Position numbers and translations under genes: made by a program. DNA of 64,000 bases, taken from positions 2,810,804 to 2,874,803 of the forward strand of contig NW_022985549.1 of assembly GCF_010093815.1 (NCBI RefSeq). The letters run 5' to 3'. The notes beneath the pieces were generated by a model. That model was not told the origin of the DNA, ran no database searches, and saw only the letters and a program-made list of their open reading frames with translations. The stretch comes from Pseudovirgaria hyperparasitica (Eukaryota > Ascomycota > Dothideomycetes > Acrospermales > Acrospermaceae). Shown piece by piece: positions 7,773 to 34,839 of the stretch; position 1 is the first letter of the stretch; every line of letters begins with the position of its first letter.

Positions 7773-10700
7773 CTACGCCTCCCTAAACGCCCTAGCACGC
7801 ATACGGCCCCAGTCCTGCTCATCGAAGCGCGCCTCCCTCGCACCATACAACAGCCTGCCCGCATCCGGCTCTCTCAGCTCAGCGCGCCAGTCGCAAAGCT
7901 CGTCGTCTGTGATTTCGACCGGCCAATCGACCCAGTCCCACACCAGGTTCTTGTAGAACTGCTTTGCGGCCAGGCTAGCGGCGCGTCCGGGGCGGTGGTT
8001 GAAGCGGCGCGTCAGGTTGGCGATCAGCTCGTTGGTGTCTGGGTCGGCGGAGTCGAGGGCGAGTATGTAGGGCTGGTCCTGCTTCAAGGATGGGAGAAGG
8101 TCAGGGTCGTCGTGGGTTAGAGATGTGCCGATGAGGGCAATGATGTCTGTTGAGAGGACGGGCTCGTGGAGGGCGTGTCCGCTGATGCCTGCGGGGGCTT
8201 CGCCGGCGAGGATGTCAATGCTGGCTGGGAGCATGCCTTGGACTTTCGTTGGAAATAGCGCGCTGCTCTGGGCCCGGGACTTCGGTGGGACCTTTTTCGG
8301 TTCCCTGGCAGGCGTGTCGGCTGAGTTGAGGGTATTCCAATATGCTCTTGGTCTGACGCACCCCCCTGAATGGGTGATGAGGGCTTGACATAGCATGATA
8401 CCAAGATCTGCATTACGTCGCTTCTGCAACCTTGAGAGGATCTTGACATGAGAACGCCAGTGTCTGAAGAGATGTACAAGGTCTTCCTCCGCAATCCACT
8501 CGCGGGTCGCATGCGTGTGACGGCTCATGATGTCCTTGAAATGACGTGGCCAGCGGTTTTCGTAGCGCATGACTCGGAGAAGTAAATGGCGATGCTTGTA
8601 CATGGAACTCAGCATTCTGTAGTCGAACATCAAATCCGACCTTTCGCATAGAAGCAACACGCTGCGGAAGCCGCGTAAGTTGCCACTTTCAGCATGTGCT
8701 TTCATCCAGCAACTCATGATGCTAGTATCAAAAGGACAATGCGCAGTCCATTTGGAGACAAAGACTTCTCGTAACAGGCTGGCCGCAAGATGTGGTTTTC
8801 TACGGTTGATGAGTTCGTGAGCAGCGCTGAGAGTGATGTAGTGGTTGACTGCAAGCCCCTTGGATTGATTGAAGTGGTAGTATTCGAACACCTTCCGGCG
8901 GATCATCTCTGGGTCGGAGCGGGTGGTAAAGATGCGATGCGCAAGTAGCCGGCGTATGGCGATATCAACCACGATGCCTTGCTGACGGGCTCGGGCCATG
9001 ATAGATTCGGCCAAAGTAGAGTCATCTGGCGTTTCCTTCAAGCACGCAGCGATAGTCAAGTCCAGTATAGGGCCAGTCAGTGGTTTGTGTTTTGCTAACC
9101 GCCCTTCGAACGCTGTCCGAACTTTGGAATACTCCCCGTGAGCATACCACTGGTGGATTTGGGTCCAATAAGCAGCTGGTGAAGCTGATTGAGTACGAAT
9201 TGAAAGCGCCAGAGGCGTCGTAAATTCTTCATGCTCCTTCGCGCTCATCTTGGACGCTTCGAAGTCTCGAACTTGACTCCACATGCTCCCCAATTGTGCA
9301 GATAGCAGCCCTGGAGCGTTTCTGTGTAGTAGCTCTGTCATCTCGGCCAAGGTGACAGAGTCTGGTCGGTGGAGCTGCTGGTGTATCCGAAGGAGATCCC
9401 CTGCAAGTTTAGGAGTTACCATGAAGTCCGTTTTGACGCTGTGGAAGTAGGCCAAAATATTTGGGATGTCCGGCCCGCGTCTCTCTTTCAGAGCAGAATC
9501 AACAAGAGTCCTCAGCAGCTCCTCGTTGGGCTTCAGCATGTGTTGTGCGATTCTGCTCTTGACCCAGGAAAATGCCTCGTCGAACGTACGGGTTGAGAGA
9601 TAGACAGAAACGAGAGGATGCAAGGCATCCATCTGTCCTTCGGCATCAAGAATCTCAAGGCTATTCAGAGTGTCCAAGATAGGACTCAAGGCGTACCAAT
9701 TCTGTCGATCCGCTGCTTCTGCGAGCGCTTCCAATGCTTTGTTACTGCGAACAGAGGTTGGTCCCATTCCTGCGCCATGCCGAGCTTGAACTTGTATCGC
9801 TGAGAACATTAGGGAAATGCCTTTGCTGAGGTTCGTGGTAGCCGCCATCATCCCGTACACATCTTTCACGACGTTGATGTTCTTAGTGGTGCTCCAGCAC
9901 TTCTTCAGAATGGAAACGTAAGCATTCTCCAGAACCCGTTCTCCATTGCTGATGCCTACTTTATCCAGTCTTGTGTGAACAAGTATACCATGATCGAGCG
10001 CGCTGCAAAGACGTGCAATTCTGCTGATGGCGTGCTCTACAGGACGAACTACGGCAATTGAATAACATACTCTCTCGATCAAGCCTGGATCGATTGGAAG
10101 CAATGACTCGTACTTTGCAGAAAGCCGTTCGACCGTGTGATGGTTATCAGACTGCGAAAGGAGGATAAGATGTATGTTACCCTGATCTATGCCGTCCTGC
10201 TTGTCGAGGATAGCAACTAGTTGACTTGTCATCTTCCACTTCCCGCTTTCGAGCGCTTCCGTCAGGACTCGCAGAACCTGAGGCTCTATGGACGGAACAC
10301 TCCCTCTGATACGTTTCAACATATCAACCATTCGCCTGGTCTTCTCGCGCACTGATACGTCGGACTCTACAACTTGGCGAAACCGCGACTCGCATAGACG
10401 GGTCCATTGTTCTTTGTGGGTATCGACCTTTGTCACGATGTCGATGATAGCCTGGCATAGAGTGACCGGGATGCTACCCTCGATGATTCTGTTGAATGCC
10501 TCTTCCAAGGACTTTCCGGTTGATGCTGTCTTTCTACGCCGATCCTTTCTTGAAAGCCATACGTACTTGATTAGCTCAAGAGCTTCACGTTCGTATGGAT
10601 TATCTCGGAGAGCACCAGTAAACCGCACCAGGCTTGGGGTCTCGGCCAACGGTTCGGATGTGTCCACATAGTACTGTAACAGCTCTTGACTGTGTTCCTC

Positions 10701-11999
10701 TAGGGAAGCCAAGCACACCTCGTCTAGCTGGCCCCATGATTTCAACCTGTCACGCAATCTCTTGAGGTGGTTCGTGTGTGTGGACCTGGCGATCATCCGC
10801 AGGAGATCCTGACCAATGGTTGTTACCGTCTTACTTGTGATTTGGGTGGTGTCTTCCGTCAGCTCGAGGAATGTCTCTACAAGCTCTTTACTAGGGTAAG
10901 TTTCAAGGATGTGAGAAGACGGAAGTAGGTGGCCAAAATTAGGCTGCAATTGCACTTTAGATGTCACTGCTTGAAATTCTGTTTGGTTATCTTCAAGGGA
11001 GGCGGAGCTAAGTCTCTGGTGTGGCTGACCTGTGCGGAGCTCGTGGTATAACAAAAATTTCTCGAGGGCTGAGCTGTGCGTAGGCGCACGATCAATGGCT
11101 GCTGGTAATGCAGCACTATTTACAGTTGCAATTGCAGCTGGTCTTGTATGTAGGCTCCCCCACATACTCTGTGACTTTGCGGATAAGGGGACAGCCATTG
11201 CAGGGATATCACTAGCTTTCGTGGCATCAGAGAACAGCGGTGGCATTTTGAGTATATCAGCCTCCTTCAATGTTCCAGCCCATGGTGTCTGATATGGTCC
11301 AGGATCTCTCGGTGCATCAGGAGGGAGGTAAAAGAGTGAAGTCAGGTCCATCGACACCGGATTGATTTGCTGTGAATCCAAATGCAACGAACGCGGGTAC
11401 ACCGATGACGAAGATAGGCTCGCATACTTATTGTAGAGTCGATGACAGGAGTCTCGACAATTCAATCCTCCCGGGGACAGCTTCAATTGATGCCTCCCAC
11501 CCAGCCCGCTTACGCGTCGATTTTGCATTCTCGACATCATCCTTCGGATTTCATCCTTCCATTTGACTCTTTTGGTATGCTCGTTCACCTCTTTACGTGC
11601 CCGTTTCGTCGTCGTCTCGCCTCGTGGCGCACTTGTATGTAGCTTCCTCCGCCCACTCCTCGTATCGCCGCTCTTCGTTATGTGGTATCCTTCCTGTTCG
11701 TCGATCTCAACAGCCGGTCTCTTGTACGGCTTATGGATCCTCTGTTCCAGTACTCCAGTTCCGCCTAATTGTTTCATCTCTTCCCCTGTCAACGCGCTTC
11801 GATGCACTAACCTCCGCCCCCGCACGCTCTTGAGCTTCTTCCCATTGTCGACAACTTTTTGCAACGTGCATATTCTCCGTCGCCTTTCTTCGTATAGCAA
11901 TAGACTGACGCCGGCGGTAGTGCCGAGGCTGCCATACAGAGCGGCATCGCGCAGGAATTTGAGCGTTTCTGTGGATGGTGCGCGTAGTATTGGGGGCAT
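7773..11999 (-). CDS. Large uncharacterised protein, probably mitochondrial helical-repeat (PPR-like)
   Basis: Uninterrupted frame. From the ATG at 11999 (MPPILRAPSTETLKFLRDA) it gives 1408 aa; the frame stays open up to 12206, adding 69 residues, so the start is uncertain. I prefer 11999 because the short hydrophobic segment AALYGSLGTTAGVSLLLYEE at about residues 17-36 followed by ERRRRI looks like a membrane or targeting N-terminus. The middle and C-terminal parts are runs of amphipathic helix pairs, for example LEALAEAADRQNWYALSPIL and TPKLAGDLLRIHQQLHRPD, with spacing like PPR or TPR arrays. The end is acidic and Trp-containing (WDWVDWPVEITDDELCDW). I cannot assign a function. Fungal PPR proteins of this size usually act on mitochondrial RNA, but that is inference. 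Confidence 0.75.
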   Translation of the reverse strand: MPPILRAPSTETLKFLRDAALYGSLGTTAGVSLLLYEERRRRICTLQKVVDNGKKLKSVRGRRLVHRSALTGEEMKQLGGTGVLEQRIHKPYKRPAVEIDEQEGYHITKSGDTRSGRRKLHTSAPRGETTTKRARKEVNEHTKRVKWKDEIRRMMSRMQNRRVSGLGGRHQLKLSPGGLNCRDSCHRLYNKYASLSSSSVYPRSLHLDSQQINPVSMDLTSLFYLPPDAPRDPGPYQTPWAGTLKEADILKMPPLFSDATKASDIPAMAVPLSAKSQSMWGSLHTRPAAIATVNSAALPAAIDRAPTHSSALEKFLLYHELRTGQPHQRLSSASLEDNQTEFQAVTSKVQLQPNFGHLLPSSHILETYPSKELVETFLELTEDTTQITSKTVTTIGQDLLRMIARSTHTNHLKRLRDRLKSWGQLDEVCLASLEEHSQELLQYYVDTSEPLAETPSLVRFTGALRDNPYEREALELIKYVWLSRKDRRRKTASTGKSLEEAFNRIIEGSIPVTLCQAIIDIVTKVDTHKEQWTRLCESRFRQVVESDVSVREKTRRMVDMLKRIRGSVPSIEPQVLRVLTEALESGKWKMTSQLVAILDKQDGIDQGNIHLILLSQSDNHHTVERLSAKYESLLPIDPGLIERVCYSIAVVRPVEHAISRIARLCSALDHGILVHTRLDKVGISNGERVLENAYVSILKKCWSTTKNINVVKDVYGMMAATTNLSKGISLMFSAIQVQARHGAGMGPTSVRSNKALEALAEAADRQNWYALSPILDTLNSLEILDAEGQMDALHPLVSVYLSTRTFDEAFSWVKSRIAQHMLKPNEELLRTLVDSALKERRGPDIPNILAYFHSVKTDFMVTPKLAGDLLRIHQQLHRPDSVTLAEMTELLHRNAPGLLSAQLGSMWSQVRDFEASKMSAKEHEEFTTPLALSIRTQSASPAAYWTQIHQWYAHGEYSKVRTAFEGRLAKHKPLTGPILDLTIAACLKETPDDSTLAESIMARARQQGIVVDIAIRRLLAHRIFTTRSDPEMIRRKVFEYYHFNQSKGLAVNHYITLSAAHELINRRKPHLAASLLREVFVSKWTAHCPFDTSIMSCWMKAHAESGNLRGFRSVLLLCERSDLMFDYRMLSSMYKHRHLLLRVMRYENRWPRHFKDIMSRHTHATREWIAEEDLVHLFRHWRSHVKILSRLQKRRNADLGIMLCQALITHSGGCVRPRAYWNTLNSADTPAREPKKVPPKSRAQSSALFPTKVQGMLPASIDILAGEAPAGISGHALHEPVLSTDIIALIGTSLTHDDPDLLPSLKQDQPYILALDSADPDTNELIANLTRRFNHRPGRAASLAAKQFYKNLVWDWVDWPVEITDDELCDWRAELREPDAGRLLYGAREARFDEQDWGRMRARAFREA

Positions 12000-12426
12000 G
12001 CTGCCGGTGGTCACCACGACAATCCAATCAAGGGGTGCTCCTGGCGGGTGTGCATCGCGAGGACGTTTAACTGAAGAATTGCGATGTACACATATGTGAG
12101 AGGGGTGGCCGAGGGTCAATGATTGGATTTGTATCGGAGATGCAGAAGAAGTTCGCCGGAGTTGGAGTGTAGCATGAATGCAGACTAGCTTGTTTCTTAG
12201 CGTCATGGATTGATGAGTCTGGATGCCTTAAGACACATGTCAGGTCTCAGACACACATCCTCGAGCAATATTATCCAAGGCAACCTTCTACGGACTAATC
12301 TTGTTTACAGGTTTTTGCTTTCCTCAAGAGAAGATATGTTCAGAATGCAAACGCAAGCCGCCAACGCCGACGCCTAAACAGCAACATAGGTAGGAACAGA
12401 CGACCATATTAACTATTGAACAGTCC

Positions 12427-15154: not shown

Positions 15155-16617
15155 CTAGGCTGCAGCTGCAGCGGCTTGGGGAGCATTCTCTACTTGTCCA
15201 GCGCCGTAGCCCTTCCATTCAGTCAGGCTGGGGTGCACGCCAACACGTTCCTTGCTCAGCAGATCAACGAGGAGACGATCGGGCTTGTTACCCTGTGCGC
15301 CGAACACCGCTTGGCCTTGCTTATACTTGGCCACGCTCTCCATGTATCGGTCGAACAGATAAGCCGAGTCAAGTGGTCCTCCCTTGGCTTCGGGGTGGAA
15401 CTGGGCAGAGAAGATTGGCCGAGAAGTGTGGATGATTCCTTCGTTTGAAGAGTCGTTCAAGTTGACAAAGTATTCCTTGTATTCCTTTGGAAGCGTGGTT
15501 GCATCGACAGCGTACCCGTGGTTCTGCGAAGTGATATGGCACTTTCCGGTGGTGAGGTCCAGGGCTGGGATGTTGTGTGCGCGGTTGCCATACTTCAGTT
15601 TGATGGTTTTTGCTCCAGCAGCCAGAGCAAGGAGCTGGTGGCCCATGCAGATCCCCATGATCGGAACTTGGGAGCTGTCAATCAACTTCCGGAGGTGGTA
15701 GACAGTCTCTTGACAATGGGTCGGGTCACCAGGCCCGTTCGAGATGAACACGCCATCAAAGTGGTGAGCTACCTTATGAATAGGGTAGTTGTATGGGAAG
15801 CAAGTAACTGAGGCGCCACGAGACACGAGAGATCGCAAAATGTTCTCCTTCACACCACAGTCGATGAGGGCAACGTGGTATTCTCCATTTGCAGCATTGA
15901 CATGGAATGGCGCCTTGGTCGAAACACGGCGGACGAGGTTGATAGCCTCCGGGTCAATATAGGCTTCATCTTCGTCTGCATCATATTCCTCGCCAACGGA
16001 GATACGGGCAAGAGAAGAACCTTGTTCTCGCAGGTAAGTCACGATAGCTCGAGTGTCCACACCAGAGATAGCGGGCACACCCTCACGAGCACACCACTCA
16101 GCAAGTGACTCAACAGCAGTCCAATGAGAATGACGTTCCGCAAAATCCGCAACTACAACACCGGCAGCTTGAATGTTAGGCGATTCGAAGTATCGTAGGA
16201 GACCATGGCTATCTCGAGCCGCGGACGGGACCCCGTAGTTTCCAATTAATGGCTGGGTGAAGACGAGAATTTGTCCACGGTATGAAGGGTCAGTCATCGA
16301 CTCTGGGTATCCGACTAAGGAGGTGGTGAACACGGCTTCGCCCGAGATATTGGACTTGGCTCCAAAGGATTTGCCGTGGTAGATCGGGCCATTCTACCAA
16401 GTTAAGATACAGTCTAATGTGCGTGTGGATTCTGACATACCTTGATTGTGAAAGTGGCTCGTTCATGGGATACTGCTGTAGGTTTGCGGTTAGGAACTGG
16501 AGGATCTCGTGCAGTATTGTTCTGGATGGTTGCCAAAAACCGAGCATGCGCGCTGCTTGTGAGGGATCGGGGAGCGAAAGCCCTCGTTGAAGAGGCTTTG
16601 AGCATTCCTGAAAACAT
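15155..16617 (-). CDS. CPA1: Carbamoyl-phosphate synthase, arginine-specific small (glutaminase) subunit
   Basis: Hydrolyses glutamine and passes ammonia to the large subunit to make carbamoyl phosphate for arginine synthesis. Two exons: 16617-16441 (59 codons) and 16393-15155, separated by a 47-nt intron; 471 aa. The N-terminus ([20 protein letters not shown], rich in Ser, Arg and Ala) is a typical mitochondrial presequence. The CPSase small-chain N-terminal domain includes [18 protein letters not shown]. The class I glutaminase domain has its nucleophile Cys in [14 protein letters not shown] and the catalytic His and Glu in [12 protein letters not shown]. The orthologue is called arg-2 in Neurospora. 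The leader carries the attenuator uORF at 16981-16682, whose stop is 64 nt before this ATG. Identification is very secure. Confidence 0.96.
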
Positions 16618-16681
16618 TTTTGACGTGTACTTGGGATGCCGTAGGGATATTTTGTATGGCTTGCTGGTTTTGCTGTGAGGC

Positions 16682-16981
16682 TCAGTTTACTGACGCCTTC
16701 CACAGGTGATCTGATAGGTATGAGTGAGCGATGGCATCATACACATTCGACAGCGAGTATACCTGAGATGTAGTCCTGTACAAGTAATAATTAGCCAATG
16801 GGTCCAAAAGAGTGAACATCACAAGTGACGAGAGAATGGACAATGGTTGAGATGAAATTTCAGTATCGCTATCAGTCCAAAGCATTGGCGGTGTGTAGCG
16901 ACATAGCGTCGGTTGGCGCGAGATAAGAAAAAACAAGCAGAGGACACGTACCTGGGAAGTGAAGAGGGTCTGAAAGTGCAT
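16682..16981 (-). CDS. Arginine attenuator peptide (AAP) uORF of CPA1, split over three exons
   Basis: In fungi this peptide stalls the ribosome at its own stop codon when arginine is high, reducing CPA1 translation. Here it is 23 aa from three exons. Exon 1 is 16981-16952 (MHFQTLFTSQ), exon 2 is the 13-nt 16775-16763 (DYIS plus one base), and exon 3 is 16710-16682 (DHLWKASVN, stop TGA). Intron 1 (16951-16776) runs GTACGT...CTAAT...ACAG. Intron 2 (16762-16711, 52 nt) runs GTATAC...CTCAC...TCAG. The product has the family pattern F-T-S-Q-D-Y-x-S-D-H-L-W-[KR]-A. The Asp at position 11 equals Asp12 of the Neurospora peptide, whose change to Asn is known to abolish regulation. Phases fit exactly (72 nt in all). 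The unspliced leader is also open over the whole interval. Confidence 0.92.
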   Translation of the reverse strand: MHFQTLFTSQVRVLCLFFLISRQPTLCRYTPPMLWTDSDTEISSQPLSILSSLVMFTLLDPLANYYLYRTTSQVYSLSNVYDAIAHSYLSDHLWKASVN

Positions 16982-17761
16982 AAAGGCTTCTTTGCTTGTC
17001 CTCAGACTGTTCAGTGTTCGAATTGAAGAGAGCAATCTGTATAGGAGAGTATAGCAGCGGGGCGAGCGGAGGCGGTGAAAACTCTTTGCGAAGAGATGTG
17101 GTTTGGAAGAAGACGAGACGAGTCACCCAAGGAGGGCTGCATACATAATTAGCTATTATTTTTTTCGAGCAGCGCGCAGGAGGCGCTGAGACGCCCAGCG
17201 AATTGGGCTGCCCCAGACCCCCGCCCAGCCCCCATTTAGCAGTGCCCAGAACGCTGGAGCCGGCCTGTTGTCCCCCACCGATGACGCACCCCCATCATTC
17301 GATGCAAAATCTGTCTCCGATCTTTCACCTATGTAAAGATTCTCGCAAGTAATTGGCCTCGATCGTGACAAGCACGACAGCACATCATGTATCATGTCAT
17401 TTTGTACACTACACAGTCAAAATTCCAGTCATTATATCAACGCAACTCAATAGCAAACCTGTCAATTCAAGCAAACTATGTATATGCCACGCCGCGCTTC
17501 TAGTAGCACAGCTGCCCTGATGATCCCAATGTCATATCGTGATACGACGAGTGGGCCGTCTGGCCTCCGTAGAGATCAATATTATGATACAGAAGTCCAT
17601 GCAAGACAAAACGCCTCCTCATCAAGCCTCTATTTGATACTTGCTCTACCTAGTGTCCAAATGGTATACGCAACTTCCTGGTATATCGTCATCATTTTGA
17701 AACATAACGCCCCAAACTGCCAATGTGAACGCCTGTTGCAAACCAAAGATCGCTACGTGGA
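16982..17761. other. CPA1 5' region and intergenic
   Basis: Holds the upstream promoter and leader of CPA1 and the 3' flank of the TMEM184-like gene. No recognised gene or RNA. There is a T run near 17159-17165. No Gcn4/CPC1-type TGACTC site was clearly seen in a quick reading of both strands. Confidence 0.45.
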
Positions 17762-21219: not shown

Positions 21220-23030
21220 CTATTCCTCTGACCTTGTAGCTTCGACTTCTGGCTTCTTCCGCTTCCTAAACTCCAGCACGCCTTCCTGTTTTGGAAAGAT
21301 GAATTCATGGGCTGCAACATTGGCAGGCCTCTCAGTGCCCACCGGAAGCCTCCAGTCATAGTCCATAAGAAGTCTTACCAATATGGTCTTGATCTCCAGG
21401 CTTGCGAAGAATCTGCCGGGGCAAGCGAACTTGCCCTTGCCGAAATTCAAGATGTTTTCCTCAGTCGTTGCGAACTGGTGTAGGTGTCCCTGACCTTCTT
21501 GCGATCGTAGATCGAAATACCTCCAGGGTTGGAATTCTTCTGGGTCTGGCGTAACTAAAGGATCGTTCTGGATGGCATTAACTGGCATGGTAATATGAGC
21601 TCCCTTCGGAAGAACCATTCCGTCTGAGAGTATATGGTCGCGTTGCATGATACGGTGGTATGAGAGGAGTGTAGGCGGGTTGTGTCGTTGAGATTCCCGC
21701 ATCAACGAATCAAGGCGTTTTAGCTTGTAGAAGCTGGTCTTATCCCAGCTCATACAATCGCCTTTCTCTTTGACAACAGAATCAATCTCTTCAAGAAGAA
21801 TTGGTATACACTCCGGATGAGCGGCTAGATCATACAGCACATGGACAGCATTCATCTGAGACGTGTGGATTGATGCAAGCGATATAACGACTTCAAGGTG
21901 TGCCAGATCTTGCGGTTTGGATTCAGCCTCGGACGCTATTTCGATCATCCAGGATAGCAATGACATCTGCTTCTCTGTTTGGTAGCCTTTACGCCAGGCA
22001 GCTTGACGCTCTTTGATTTCCGGTGTCAACAACCGCTTGGCTCGACGTATGTAGTTATTTGCGCGCCACACTGAGGGAAGGAACCAGGAGACAATGCCGT
22101 GGAGAAACCGTGGGAACATCCGAAGGATTACCAAGGATATGAAGGCTGATGTCTACAATCAATAATCTGCCTTCATGCTTAGGATTCGATCTATACCTAC
22201 TGTTCTCTGTGAACTCAGTCGAAATCTCGAGCCATTCTTCGCTGCGACACAGTGGGACCCCTAGAAAGACCCGTGCACTGACACGGGCGACAAGCCGAAG
22301 AATGCTATGATAAGGTTTTATTTGCACCCATTCCCCTGAGTCTGTAAGAATGAGCTCAGTGTAATGACTAGCGATGTCTTACCATTGCTTTCAGGTATCT
22401 CCATATTGATTGCATATTCCAGTTCTTCCTGCATAGGACGAGCCAGTCTATTCAGATTCGGAGTGAGTTTCTCCTGTAGAGTTCTGAAGTGGAGATTATT
22501 TTTCAGAATGATATTCATGTTAGTGTGACTTCCCGATAAATTGAACGCATGGGCCGCTGTTGGACTGGCAATGTCTATAGGGAGGGAGCGCAACTCTTTG
22601 ACATATCTCGGCGGAAGAACCAGCATATCCACGTCAGCTCTGGTGAATTTCCAGATACGGTTGGGAAACTGATAAAGTCAGCCTATAGTATCTAAGTAGT
22701 CTGTGTGCATGAACGGACTTTCTTATAGCCGCCGTTCAAGATTTCGGCTGCTCTTCTGAAAAAGTTCCAAGAGGACCAAATCTGCGGCTCCCATGCCGAA
22801 CGGACACTGTAGAGAGGGACTTCATTATCGTTGGCTGAGATCGTCACAACGGAACTGAGGCTCGTAATCCCTATGATCAGTAAAACAGCAATTGTTGCAA
22901 CCTGATATGGGTGTTCAAGTGCGTATTGTACTCCTAGTCTTAAAGGCTTTTGTAGAGACTCGATTTTGACAGCGTCTGGAATCCTACTGAAGAGATATGG
23001 TGCGTAGCCTACTGCTTTAGGGTGATCCAT
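21220..23030 (-). CDS. Cytochrome P450 (ent-kaurene-oxidase-like group)
   Basis: Haem-thiolate monooxygenase on the ER membrane. Exons: 23030-22719, 22668-22383, 22341-22201, 22145-21220; 554 aa. A hydrophobic anchor sits near residues 41-60 (YQVATIAVLLIIGITSLSSV). The I-helix region is ISLASIHTSQMNAVHVLYDL, where the usual Ala/Gly-Gly-x-Asp/Glu-Thr-Thr is replaced by SIHTSQ, as in the CYP68/CYP503-like fungal enzymes. The K-helix ExxR is MRESQR, the PERF region is FQPWRYFDLR, and the haem loop is NFGKGKFACPGRFFASLEIK with Cys ligand. Close relatives often oxidise terpenoids, but no terpene synthase is present here. The C-terminus is basic and charged (RKRKKPEVEATRSEE). Confidence 0.88.
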
Positions 23031-25404: not shown

Positions 25405-27334
25405 CTAAAATAGCCTCAAGCCAGAATCCGGTTGATCGACTAAATGTGTTCTTGCATATTCGCGCCATATGACGCAAACATCATGCACACTGCTAGGTAC
25501 TGTCTGTTGCTCGATCTGTTTCTTGCCATAAGCGATGTTGACGTACATGCCTAGCGCCAGATGCGTGAAAATGTGGCAGTGGAATGGCCAGATTCCTGGA
25601 TTATCCAACCGAAATTGAATGACCAGATAGCTTGGCGTGATGGTTCCGTTCAGCATGTTATTAGTGCTGTATGCTGCCAACATCTGATGAGTATCCCGTC
25701 GAAGTGGATTATCTGTCCGTACGGACCCATTCCAGGTTCCAATACCTTCTGCCAGTATCGAGAAATCGTGGCCATGCAAATGCATAGGATGTGGACGTGG
25801 CCAAAAGTTACGCATGACGATTCTCAAAGACGTGTTGTAGCTGAAGTCGTCAAGAACAGATTGCGGAGGAGCTTGAGCTAAGCTGAAGACCGGATCTGCA
25901 GCCTGCTCTAGTAACGCATTGTTGAAGTCAGCACGAAATGTTCGATTGTTAGTAAAAAATAACCTGGTGCCAGTAGCGTTGGCCCCGAAGGTAAAGTCGT
26001 AGTGCTGCGTGTAGGAAGGCGTAGTCTCTGGGCTATCATGTTCGAAGGGGGTTGCCTTGTTCAATTCGGTCTTGTTACATCAGCGATAAGTCGACTGTCA
26101 CTTACAGGGTAGCTTACAGTGTTACATGCATTGAGAGTGCGGTTTGTCGGTGTACTCGAGGGCTCAACACTACAATCTGCACCTTCGTAGTATATGGCAG
26201 CAAGTGCGAAAGGCTGTTTGACTGTAGAACAACTTCTGTCTGCGGTTGCACGCATCCAATAGCTGTCCCCAGGCTCCCCAGTACCATTGACTAGCACTTC
26301 TACTCTCTGACCTGGCGATAGGCTGACAACATCCGTAACAAACGGATCGACTTGAACGAAGTCAAGAGCGACAACTGTCAACATGTGTCCGTCAATAGAA
26401 AAGTGTTCGAAAGGCTCTGCACCTGAGTTCACTATACGAAGTAAATGAATCTTTCCGCTGCGAAATCGGTCGAAGGTCGAAACTTTCACTGCCGAAGAAC
26501 ACGTGAGATTTGTTTTCGAGCAATCGAATGGCCTGGTTACAATTATTCGCTGGACGTGTCCCCATGGAGAATGACAACATACATCTTGCCATTTATCAGA
26601 TTATTATCGCTTTGAACAACTCTCGCCTGCATTGTCGCGTCGATTAATTCACGGTAATCTCTATGATATCGCTCACTCTGTCTTCGATCAGATATGGGAT
26701 TAGAAGGATAAACCTGGCTTACTATCATGACAAGACCTATATCTATATCGTAATCGAAGTTTGAAGGTCCGTCAATAATTATACCTCCAAATAAACCACC
26801 AACCAACTGTCCTGAGAAATGAGAGTGCCACCAGCTACTTCCTACCCGATCTGCTATAAAGCGGTAGGTGAAAGACTCTCCAGGAGGAATTGGACACATG
26901 GATACTGAGGGTACACCATCCATGAATATGGAGTCCTTTTGAAGGAGACCATGCCAATGAATAGCTGTGCCCGTCTCCGGGCCTGTAATGCGATTGTTGA
27001 CTTTGACTACAAAGACATCACCTAGGTTTGCTCGTATCGTTGGTCCAGGAAAATGACCATTCACTAGCAGGAGGCTAGCGTTGACGCCATCTGGTGCGGC
27101 ATATTCACGGGTAATGTTGAACGTATAGTGACGCTCACGCGCATGGTGATTGTTGGTGCGGGTATCCTGTGAGCTTTTCTGACGATAGTCGACGAGTGTT
27201 CTGGAAGTCTCTGACACCCCAGCCAAATTTAAGACCGGTGGAGGGTGGAGCAAGACATCTGATGCCAAAGTTTCTCGGGGCGAATCTCTCAAAGCTGCAC
27301 TTAGAGTGAACAACAGCAAATAGGCAAACTTCAT
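25405..27334 (-). CDS. Secreted laccase (multicopper oxidase, ascomycete type)
   Basis: Oxidises phenolic substrates with reduction of O2 to water. Exons: 27334-26583, 26532-26118, 26070-25405; 610 aa. The start at MKFAYLLLFTLSAALRDS gives a signal peptide; in-frame upstream Met codons would bury it. Copper ligands: L1 IHWHGLLQKD, L2 SWWHSHFSGQ, L3 HPMHLHGHDF, L4 FHCHIFTHLALGM (T1 Cys, axial Met). The join between exons 1 and 2 restores LINGKMPFDC, the usual LINGxG/C region. Many N-glycosylation sequons are present (NITR, NASL, NGTG, NRTF, NTSL, NGSV, NGTI). The C-terminus ends DSGL followed by RLF, resembling the processed C-terminal plug of ascomycete laccases. Possible roles are melanin or phenolic chemistry; the substrate cannot be read. 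Confidence 0.92.
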
Positions 27335-28267
27335 CCTGCAGGGGAGTTGTAGCGATGACCAAAACATTCTATGAAAAGAGGCAGAGGAAAGACATGCAGT
27401 CTTGTAGCGGCTGAGGTACAACAGTAACACATGATTGGATGGACGGCTTAAAGCCAGGGGAACCTTTGAATCCATGCCACTGACCTCTATTTGGTTGTAC
27501 AAGGAGCGGGGATCTCTCCTGATTCAGTATGATCACCTCCTATTGCGTACCCGACCATGACTTCTAAACGTAAAAGCAAGACCAGCATACCTGTTGGTTC
27601 ATTCATGCACACAAATTTAGGCTCCCCTGATCGAACCCTTGTTGTATTTTCCCTCGAGCATTTTGCTACTGTCATTGTACTTGTCATCCAAACTCGTACC
27701 GACCGCCTTCCACAAAATACTCAGCTTGGATATGGTCGGAAAAAATCATGGAACTTGTGAAATTCCTGTTCATATACATGTCCATACACTTCGCAACATC
27801 AAGCGGGTGAAATTATTCCGTCACAACACGCGAGTGCGCTGACAGCCTGGCAATGGACAGGCCTCATCGGCCAGAGCGTGAACATCCCACGCCGATCCCA
27901 AGCCATTCCAACATTCGGCGAGAAAGTCCAGAGGCGATGATAAGCTGCAGTACGAAGTGCTGGAAGGTATCAGCAACCTATCACCGCTAGCCAGGGCTTT
28001 GTTGGACCCGGGGTATTCCGAAGCTCGTCAGAGTACCTATTTTAAGAGAGTAAACCATAGACTTGATCGAGAGAAACGAGGAAACCGTTGTCATATGTCC
28101 CTCGAGCTCGTAAAGACGCGCAAGGTAGTTTCCTGGGATGAGAAACCCGGGTCCAGGGCAGTATGATATAGCCCCTGATGCGCTCAGCTTTATATGCTCC
28201 GTCTCAGCTTTCGTAGCTTGCTCATTATGACAAAACTTTGTTAATTACAACCGTTGAAGATTTCGCT
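27335..28267. other. Intergenic between divergent laccase and SAT4-type gene
   Basis: 933 bp of promoter DNA for both neighbours. Short ORFs only, no recognised motif clusters or repeats. Confidence 0.45.
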
Positions 28268-30083: not shown

Positions 30084-31797
30084 ATGAACGATACGCCAAA
30101 TGCCGGCCCTCTGATCATGATGCCTACCCCTTCTATACTTGTTGTAGCTCTATGTGCTCTAATTCTGGTGAAGAGCTCGCCAAATTTTCATTCCAGTATA
30201 ACTAATATAACTAGTATCTATGTCATTGCATCAGGTACAATTGGTACTCAAGTCCCCTCGCTCGCCTGCCAGGTCCGCCTCTCTGGAGCGTCTCCAGACT
30301 ACCTTTCATACTGTCCTTATGGAGAGGGCGACTTGTATACGACGTATTCGACATGCACAAGAAGTGAGTAGGACTGCCGAGGATCTTTCTCTTATGAACT
30401 AATGTTGGTCGGCAGATATGGAGATGTTGTGAGAATCGCGCCAGATGAGGTATCATTTGCAAGTGGCGAAGCATGGAAAGATATATACTGCCGACGGCCC
30501 GGTCATCAACCCTTCCTCAAGAACCCGATCTGGTGGGGAGAGATGGCAGGGCGCGCAGAGTCTATTGTGAGCGTTCCCTCTTGGGATGGCCATGAGAAAC
30601 ACAGGAAGATGATTTCGCATTGCTTCAGCGACCGAGCCCTCAACGACGAAGAATCGCTGGTACAAGCTCACGTCAATCTACTGATAAATACTCTTTGTGC
30701 AAAAGTCGAAGAGTCACCAACCATGACAGCCATGGTCAATATGGTAGACTGGTACTCGTTTACAACATTCGATATCATTGGAGAGCTTTGTTTCGGTGAT
30801 CGAGAAGCCTTTGGGTGCCTGAAAAACAGCAATTATCATCCTTGGATCAAACAGATTGCAACCTATTTCAAGTACGGGTCGCTTATGGCTACAATACGCT
30901 TCTATCCTCTCCTTGCAAACATTGTACACCGTTGTATTCCCCGTCATGTGTACGATGCCCAAGAGAAAAACTATCAATGGGCGGTTAGGAAAGTCCGCGA
31001 AAGACTCAATTCAGATACTCCACAAAGGGATTTTATGAGCACAATAAGTCCTTACTTGAAAGGCTTCGGAGGCGCCCGAGATGAGAGTGGCATTAGTATG
31101 GCAGAGCTGGAAAGTAACTTCTATGTGCTAGTTAATGCTGGTAGTAGCACATGCACCACTGTACTTTGCGGAGCAACCAGCTACTTGATGAAGAGCCCTG
31201 AGGCTATGCTCACATTACGCAAAGAGCTAAGAGCACGATTCAAGAACACTTCTGAGATGACGTTCTCGAAGCTCGCTAATTTACCTTATCTCAACGCTGT
31301 CATTGAGGAGTCTCTGAGATTAGCTCCTCCTGTTGGAGGAGCACTCTCACATGTTGTACCCCCTGGCGGTGATACTGTCTGTGGTATTTGGCTACCTGGA
31401 GGTGTAAGTATTCTTGTTACTACCTTGTGTAGTCCTAGCTGATATTTTCACGTGATAGACTCAAGTTGGCGTACACCAGTGGTCAGCATTTCGAAACCCT
31501 TTGAAGTTCCACAACGCTGATGCGTTCAAACCGGAGCGCTGGCTTGCTGAGATCAAGACTGAGAATTCTCCATTTTTATCAGACGATCGTGAGACTGTAA
31601 GTGCATTCTCAGTCGGATCGTGGATGTGTATCGGTAAAAATCTCGCCATGGCCGAACTGCGTCTAATAATATCTCGGATGGTGTGGAGGTTCAACATCGC
31701 TGAAGGGAGAAATAAAGTAATATGGTCAGAGCAGAAGCAATATGTGCAGATGGAGTTGGACAACCTCGAAGTTGAGTTGTCTATGCTAGAAGAATGA
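30084..31797 (+). CDS. Cytochrome P450 (CYP65 / trichodermin-hydroxylase-like group)
   Basis: Membrane-anchored monooxygenase. Exons: 30084-30167, 30215-30363, 30416-31403, 31459-31797; 519 aa. The first intron is only 47 nt (30168-30214). Splicing it links the anchor (SILVVALCALIL) to IRYNWYSSPLARLPGPP, the expected post-anchor Pro-rich hinge. Other marks: KKYGDVVRIAPDEVSF, the I-helix NFYVLVNAGSSTCTTVLCG (A-G-S-S-T), the ExxR in AVIEESLRLAPP, FKPERW, and haem loop FSVGSWMCIGKNLAMAEL. The haem loop has Trp where Arg is commonest (FxxGxRxCxG). This is the longest open frame of the accessory block. No cyclase or synthase lies nearby, so the substrate cannot be inferred. Confidence 0.88.
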
Positions 31798-33128: not shown

Positions 33129-34839
33129 ATGTCACTGTCAATACCAAACGCTCCTAATGCAGGGCTCTTCAAGCAAGGCTATCAGAAGTAAGTCTTCCCC
33201 TCATTCGGCTGAACATTGAATTCATAGCTAACCAAAACACAGCTACGACGCCGAAGATGGCGCTGTCATTCGCAATATCGATGCCTGTCGGACGATTGCT
33301 TCGACCGTTCAGACTTCACTAGGACCGTACGGCCGGAATAAAATTGTCATCAACCATCTGTCGAAAATGATCCTCACTTCAGATGCTGCCACAATTCTGA
33401 GGGAGTTGGATGTCGTGCACCCAGCCGCAAAGCTGATAGTTATGGCATCACAGCAACAAGAGGCAGAGATGGGCGACGCAACAAACATGGTGATTGTGCT
33501 AGCAGGCGAGCTGTTAAAGAAGGCAGAAGAGCTGCTGCGAATGGGTCTAAAGACAAGTGATATCGTACAGGGGTATGAGCGGGCACAGAACGAAGCTTTG
33601 AAGATTTTAGAGTCGCTCGAGCTGGACAAGGTTGAGGACATACGGGACCAAGAGGAGCTGGCGAAAGCGATCCGGACCGTCATCGCCTCGAAGCAGAGCG
33701 GCAGCGAAGACTTCCTCGCTGACATGGTTGCCGAAGCTGTACTAGCCGTGCTCCCCAAGAATCCTTACAACTTCAACGTCGACAACATCCGCGTTGTTAA
33801 GATCATGGGCGGGAGCCTTGAGCAGTCGAAAGTGGTCAAAGGCATGGTCTTCCCTCGTGAGCCGGACGGCAGCATCAAAAAAGCTCAGAAAGCCAAAGTC
33901 GGCGTATACTCGTGTCCCATCGATATCTCACAAACTGAAACCAAGGGTACCGTGCTCCTCAAGAACGCAAAAGAAATGCTAGATTTCACCGCCGGTGAAG
34001 AGGCTCAAATGGAAGCCATCATCAAGGAGCTCTACGATTCAGGCCTCCGTGTCGTCGTCGCTGGTACTACCGTCGGCGAGCTCGCTATGCACTACCTTAA
34101 CCGCTTCAACATCCTCGTCATTAAAGTTCTCTCCAAGTTTGAGCTGCGTCGCCTCTGCCGCGTCGTTGGCGCATCACCGCTCGCCCGCCTCGGTGCTCCG
34201 ATGCCGGATGAGATGGGCTCTGTAGATATCGTCGAAACTCTCGAGATCGGCGGCGACCGTGTCACCGTGTTCCGCCAGGAGAACGAGCAGACACGCACCG
34301 CAACACTAGTCCTACGTGGTGCAACACAGAACCACCTAGATGACGTTGAGCGCGCTGTCGACGATGGTGTCAACGTCGTAAAGGCTATCACGCGCGATCC
34401 TCGACTCGTACCCGGCGCCGGAGCTGCTGAGATGCAGCTGGTAGAGCGCATTACGGCGTTTGGCGAGAAAACTAGTGGGCTGACGCAATACTCCATCAAG
34501 AAGTATGGTGAAGCATTTGAGGTGATTCCGCGCACACTGGCCGAGTCGGCGGGTCTCGATGCAACTGAGGTGCTCTCGCGGTTGTACACAGCACATGCAG
34601 CACAAAAAGGAGGCAAGAGCGTATGGACAGCAGGTATTGATATTGAGAATGAGGATGGCACAGGTGTCCTAGATGCGCGTGAGGAGGGCATCCTGGATTT
34701 AATGGTCAGCAAGAGCTGGGCGATCAAGCTTGCTACAGAGGCGGCGAGGACGGTATTGAGTGTAGATCAGATCATTGTGGCCAGGCAAGCTGGTGGTCCG
34801 AAACCCCCAGGCCCAAACCCAAACTGGGATGAGGACTAG
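33129..34839 (+). CDS. CCT8: T-complex protein 1 subunit theta (chaperonin CCT8)
   Basis: One of eight subunits of the cytosolic TRiC/CCT ring, which folds actin, tubulin and other proteins with ATP. Exons: 33129-33187 and 33243-34839; 551 aa. The start MSLSIPNAPNAGLFKQGYQN continues in phase to YDAEDGAVIRNIDACRTIAS. The ATP-site text includes TSLGPYGRNKIVINHL and AEMGDATNMVIVLAGELL; most other CCT subunits have GDGT at the second place. Theta-specific text includes KGMVFPREPDGSI and LARLGAPMPDEMGSVD. The C-terminus reads ARQAGGPKPPGPNPNWDED, matching fungal CCT8 tails. The convergent neighbour is the lectin gene, 164 bp away. Confidence 0.95.

Follow-up and report, generated by a model that had tools for sequence, protein, structure and literature searches.

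Arginine attenuator peptides (AAPs) control CPA1 from upstream open reading frames (uORFs) in fungal leaders, and the CPA1 leader of Pseudovirgaria hyperparasitica, which lies in the 64,000-nucleotide stretch of DNA that we analysed (the window), raises the question of how such a peptide could be encoded in pieces. The case matters because a strictly kept short peptide appears here to be cut by two introns, with most of its critical residues on an exon of only 13 nt. If that reading is right, a second question follows, namely whether splicing serves simply to assemble the peptide or also acts as a switch on arginine control of CPA1.

Joining the minus-strand segments 16981-16952, 16775-16763 and 16710-16682 gives MHFQTLFTSQDYISDHLWKASVN followed by a TGA stop. 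On re-splicing, the exon lengths of 30, 13 and 29 nt, the coordinates, the phases (0 and 1) and the 23-residue product that an earlier note had read from this DNA were all recovered exactly. The elements of the leader and of the gene below it are the following, in the order of the transcript.

16952..16981, minus strand: uORF exon 1, 30 nt, MHFQTLFTSQ; ATG with T at -3 (GCCTTTATGC)
16776..16951, minus strand: intron 1, 176 nt, phase 0, GTACGT...CTAAT...TACAG; separates Gln10 from the key Asp11
16763..16775, minus strand: microexon GACTACATCTCAG, 13 nt; Asp11-Tyr12-Ile13-Ser14 and base 1 of Asp15
16711..16762, minus strand: intron 2, 52 nt, phase 1; donor GTATAC (weak), branch candidates CTCAC and CTCAT, acceptor ATCAG
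16682..16710, minus strand: uORF exon 3, 29 nt; final two bases of Asp15, HLWKASVN, stop TGA
16618..16681, minus strand: spacer from the uORF stop to the CPA1 start, 64 nt, no ATG
16441..16617, minus strand: CPA1 coding exon 1, 177 nt; start with A at -3 (GTCAAAAATGT)
16394..16440, minus strand: CPA1 intron, 47 nt, phase 0, GTATGT...TTAAC...TAG; junction 241 nt past the uORF stop in the mRNA
15155..16393, minus strand: CPA1 coding exon 2; whole protein 471 aa

The ATG at 16981 is the first in its open frame, and the core of the peptide ends at Trp18, where KASVN and the TGA come next, so that the reading frame closes shortly after the core. The uORF start has T at -3 where that of CPA1 has A, and we take it to be leaky and poorly placed. 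Additional ATGs lie upstream of the uORF on the minus strand, at 17146 and 17142 (MYAALLG and a 43-codon frame) and, in a scan reaching to 17300, at 17235, 17295 and 17298; a transcript that begins above them would contain further uORFs.

The product of the downstream gene matches TIGR01368, the glutamine-hydrolysing carbamoyl-phosphate synthase small subunit, with 448.6 bits (E = 1.4e-134), and the AAP itself would mark it as the arginine-specific small subunit. The sequence GTGACTC at 17120-17126 (minus strand), some 140 nt above the uORF start, is a possible Gcn4/Cpc1-type site. It was dropped as supporting evidence because the window shows no excess of such motifs (15 occurrences of RTGACTC versus 21.9 expected, and 14 of TGACTCW versus 23.6 expected). 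Scans for bacterial promoters and terminators and for tRNAs were uninformative for this locus. Elsewhere in the window, a T-complex theta gene at 33232-34839 has as its closest PDB chain 4v81_H, which we take to be a yeast chain; a 1477-codon frame at 7776-12206 (minus strand) has no Pfam match at E 0.001; and between 21220 and 31442, cytochrome P450 pieces at 21220-22152 (minus strand) and 30372-31442 (plus strand) flank a multicopper oxidase piece at 26543-27523 (minus strand).

The identity of the spliced peptide rests on comparison with a known structure. Residues 5-20 align with residues 6-21 of PDB chain 2xl1, "arginine attenuator peptide", at E = 8.7e-6, and 2xl1 is the sole match at E up to 10 among 177,635 distinct PDB chain sequences. 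The alignment pairs Asp11, Tyr12, Ile13 and Trp18 with Asp12, Tyr13, Leu14 and Trp19 of the chain, and it is Asp12, Tyr13, residue 14 and Trp19 that are named as critical for arrest by the Neurospora crassa AAP (PMC3130931). Section 3.1 of that article prints the critical residue 14 as Lys14, 2xl1 has Leu at this position, and the printed form is probably a slip. From the alignment and the residue list together, three of the four listed critical positions lie on the microexon. In yeast, the AAP causes arginine-induced stalling at the uORF stop and an Asp13Asn change abolishes arginine regulation; a mutagenic primer described in the same source places that Asp between Cys-Gln and Tyr-Ile (PMC7969011), compared with Ser-Gln and Tyr-Ile on either side of the key Asp here. 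Taken with the identities across the core and with the gene that follows, the 2xl1 match gives good support to the proposal that a CPA1 AAP is built here from three exons including a microexon, and, judged by its sequence, the peptide is an additional member of a well-known family.

Because the match depends on a choice of junctions, we asked how often such a choice would yield the core by chance. Every combination of two GT-AG introns (40-300 nt) and a middle exon of 3-33 nt was taken within a 440-nt leader, and each 36-nt span over both junctions was scored by its identities to the 12 core residues of 2xl1. A single span among the 11,156 in the leader reached 11 of 12, with exactly the junctions listed above; none scored 9 or 10, and four scored 8. 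The top two-intron score in 3000 dinucleotide shuffles was 8, attained in one shuffle, and an earlier run of 60 shuffles had peaked at 6. Across 281 other 900-nt tiles of the window, on both strands, the top score was 7 (13 tiles); this set leaves out three tiles overlapping the locus on its own strand, two of which contain the locus and score 11, the third scoring 6. When one intron or none was allowed, the leader itself gave 8 and 7, from fragments of the same peptide together with a SYLSDHLW reading. With 11 of 12 against 8 or fewer in the controls, a chance origin of the match to the AAP core is excluded on sequence grounds.

The splice signals of the two introns differ. The earlier note had credited both with standard ends and branch points, which holds for intron 1 (GTACGT, CTAAT, CAG) and for the GT-AG termini of both, but the donor and the branch site of intron 2 are weak. 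Donors were scored against a model of published donor frequencies for 2022 introns from four species of Fusarium (PMC5677156); since it was built on a different genus and assumes that positions act independently, its percentages are rough. By this measure the intron 1 donor has 6.3 bits, and of the 7360 GTs on both strands of the window 0.18% do as well; the donor of the CPA1 intron has 5.8 bits. The intron 2 donor has -1.2 bits, a score that 18% of these GTs attain and that lies in the bottom 4.8% of the Fusarium model. The sequence of the intron 2 donor, GTATAC, has neither G at +5 nor T at +6, and G at +5 is found in 93% of the published Fusarium introns (PMC5677156). Intron 1 has a standard CTRAY branch sequence, CTAAT, 14 nt from its end, and a CAG acceptor. 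The candidates in intron 2, CTCAC at 13 nt and CTCAT at 9 nt from the end, do not conform to CTRAY, and the CTCAT class accounts for about 5% or less of Fusarium branch sites (PMC5677156). Given this weak donor and branch site, intron 2 is called by peptide homology rather than by splice signals, and the weak donor makes incomplete splicing of this intron plausible. The end of intron 2 (16723-16711, minus strand) also carries codons for Ser-Tyr-Leu-Ser in frame with DHLW, and its Leu is nearer to the PDB AAP chain than is the Ile of the microexon. The idea that intron 2 contains a duplicate of the microexon is unsupported: the two sequences share 8 of 13 bases, but only 4 of the 9 that lie outside TCAG (binomial P = 0.17).

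What the leader would encode if splicing were incomplete or used other sites can be read from the alternative RNAs. Translation of the form that skips the microexon gives the tail ITCGRRQ and a stop, and translation of the form that keeps intron 2 gives DYISGILAVECV and a stop, both as the earlier note had described. Keeping intron 1 alone yields an 80-codon frame with the tail ITCGRRQ. With both introns kept, a frame of 99 codons (16981-16682) runs to the tail SYLSDHLWKASVN and the same stop as the AAP, and use of the AG at the microexon end (acceptor after 16763) produces 36 codons with that tail and that stop. These 99- and 36-codon forms contain YLSDHLWKASVN and carry AIAHS for FTSQD, which changes five core positions; the key Asp becomes Ser and, among the four listed critical residues, is the only one lost. 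Since the yeast Asp-to-Asn change loses regulation, forms with YLSDHLWKASVN would not be expected to arrest. The other AG acceptors between 16951 and 16690 lead to short tails that do not contain the core.

Isoforms were also enumerated from the ATG at 16981, allowing no more than two GT-AG introns, each of 40-300 nt, in the first 400 nt. The string DYISDHLW occurs in 3 of the 2035, and every one of the 3 splices to the microexon acceptor and lacks intron 2. One is the isoform listed above, another, through a donor 6 nt further along, has Val-Arg inserted ahead of the Asp, and the third has a 47-nt intron 1, so that the latter two differ in their intron 1 donors and in the residues preceding Asp. 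The contention that the arrest peptide exists only in fully spliced mRNA is thus borne out for the core, which needs both microexon junctions, and has to be relaxed elsewhere: the intron 1 donor can vary, and the unspliced and 36-codon forms retain YLSDHLWKASVN and the stop, though without the key Asp.

Regulated splicing as a second switch on arginine control is a possibility that finds no support here. In this scenario, the arrest-competent share of CPA1 mRNAs would depend on how far intron 2 is removed, whether that removal is inefficient or responds to arginine or stress, or on use of the acceptor after 16763. The position of the intron 2 donor in the bottom 4.8% of the published-frequency model is in keeping with it, as are the reported association of retained introns with weaker sites (PMC3925392, citing earlier work) and the requirement for both microexon junctions in all 3 of the 2035 isoforms with DYISDHLW. 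Precedents can be found in the TPP riboswitches that steer splicing around leader uORFs in fungi (PMC5882874) and in the microexon switch of Trichoderma Xlr2 (PMC11121469). However, the weak donor is the only hint of such regulation, a weak site by itself is no proof of it, and the leader offers neither an Rfam match at gathering score nor an unusual fold. Within 16300-17500, Rfam at gathering score returned nothing, and hence no known aptamer in or near the intron; the one sub-threshold hit with E no higher than 1 scores 19.2 bits, below its gathering score of 35.1, and is on the opposite strand, inside CPA1. The 300 nt from 16981 to 16682 do not fold unusually (z = 0.50), with 134 of 200 shuffles folding at least as well. 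We therefore regard the second switch as unlikely. Distinctly unlikely, in our estimate, is its fuller version, a two-layer arginine control in which regulated splicing of intron 2, by retention or by the acceptor after 16763 that yields YLSDHLWKASVN with Ser for the key Asp, would set the arrest-capable share before the arrest peptide senses arginine.

The same weak donor and branch site of intron 2 could instead be signs of a uORF in decay, in which intron 2 would be poorly spliced, most transcripts would be non-arresting, and arginine attenuation of CPA1 would be lost. A decaying peptide should show changed residues, however, and here the core is intact at 11 of 12, the phases fit and the stop comes soon after, so we consider decay very improbable. 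That the two introns were put together by chance and the leader codes otherwise, for instance through the 99-codon frame at 16981-16682 that is open across both introns to the same stop, is hardly credible, since an equally open frame turns up in 107 of 2000 shuffles of the 241-nt stretch, which makes the open frame unremarkable, and the 11 of 12 match is far beyond the controls.

The account that we favour is very probably correct: the CPA1 leader of this probably filamentous fungus appears to contain an ordinary functional AAP uORF, cut by two spliceosomal introns around a 13-nt exon and probably subject to mostly constitutive splicing. After splicing, part of the scanning ribosomes would start at the poorly placed uORF ATG. 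At high arginine, the nascent peptide would stall the ribosome at the TGA at 16684-16682, the expected site of the arrested ribosome, thereby blocking scanning to CPA1 and exposing the mRNA to nonsense-mediated decay (NMD), as in the known AAP system. At low arginine, the uORF would be bypassed or ribosomes would terminate freely. The introns would mostly be removed constitutively, each recognised by intron definition, so that the 13-nt exon is kept, and the weak intron 2 donor probably leaves that intron in some transcripts, giving a non-arresting uORF. The CPA1 junction lies 241 nt past the uORF stop, and an exon junction complex deposited downstream could therefore add to NMD. In N. crassa, an exon junction complex downstream of the uORF stop reportedly matters for NMD.

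Several elements of this account have been described in other fungi. AAP stalling at the uORF stop, the block to CPA1 and the exposure to NMD are all on record (PMC7969011, PMC7049704, PMC11550727), and in Cryptococcus ribosome occupancy of the uORF and a rise in an NMD mutant have been recorded (PMC7049704). Intron definition has been proposed for fungi, in which intron retention makes up 61% of alternative splicing events and exon skipping 3%, as species averages (PMC3925392). With intron definition, and with retention far more common than skipping, inclusion of a 13-nt exon should pose no problem, and the likely failure would be retention of intron 2.

Searches beyond the window were made with DNA patterns for the AAP core and with the CPA1 protein. 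The unspliced core pattern gave 2 matches in viral contigs and 9 in a prokaryote genome collection, all 9 in records titled as bacterial; one of the 2 viral contigs was rejected as a relative, since by eye it resembles a phage and its match falls within a long ORF but in another frame. The pattern split by intron 2 had 0 matches in viral contigs, and of 31 pattern matches between the CPA1 protein and those contigs, 0 were confirmed. The literature matches listed, as far as their text extends, contain no description of an AAP assembled from exons, which is not a claim of absence from print; the AAP and uORF portions of PMC2075485, PMC9604717, PMC10501990, PMC5487733, PMC11550727 and PMC3426882 likewise do not mention one. 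Annotation and uORF surveys based on unspliced genomic leaders would miss a split AAP, so that an apparent absence in such surveys could be a false loss. With a split AAP, nature also offers a compact way to test whether a nascent-peptide sensor is limited by how efficiently its message is spliced.

Comparison with known systems helps to place the arrangement. Like homology group 8 of the plant conserved-peptide uORFs (CHCH-type), it is a short conserved ORF interrupted by introns, which in group 8 lie at conserved positions; the peptides are unrelated, however, and the fungal version of that small ORF has no downstream main ORF (PMC2075485). Tiny internal exons are likewise found in the Trichoderma Xlr2 microexon, the 1-nt exon of Fusarium CYP621A and the 8-nt exon of a Phanerochaete P450 (PMC12940212, PMC11121469), and P450 microexons carry part of a conserved motif (PMC12940212), but those exons belong to main coding sequences, whereas the one described here sits in a leader uORF for an arrest peptide. 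In the fungal TPP riboswitch leaders of the NMT1 type, splicing of a leader intron also decides which uORF the mRNA bears (PMC5882874). In those leaders the metabolite is sensed by an aptamer that in turn directs splicing, whereas the search here turned up no known aptamer and the sensor is presumed to be the spliced peptide itself. The closest relatives are the AAPs of N. crassa arg-2 and Saccharomyces cerevisiae CPA1 (2xl1), which share the host gene, the position of the uORF in the leader, the core FTSQDY[I/L]SDHLW and the critical residues, at a peptide length of 24 in the 2xl1 chain versus 23 here. Against these AAPs, the P. hyperparasitica peptide differs in being spread over three exons, with the key Asp-Tyr-Ile on an exon of 13 nt.
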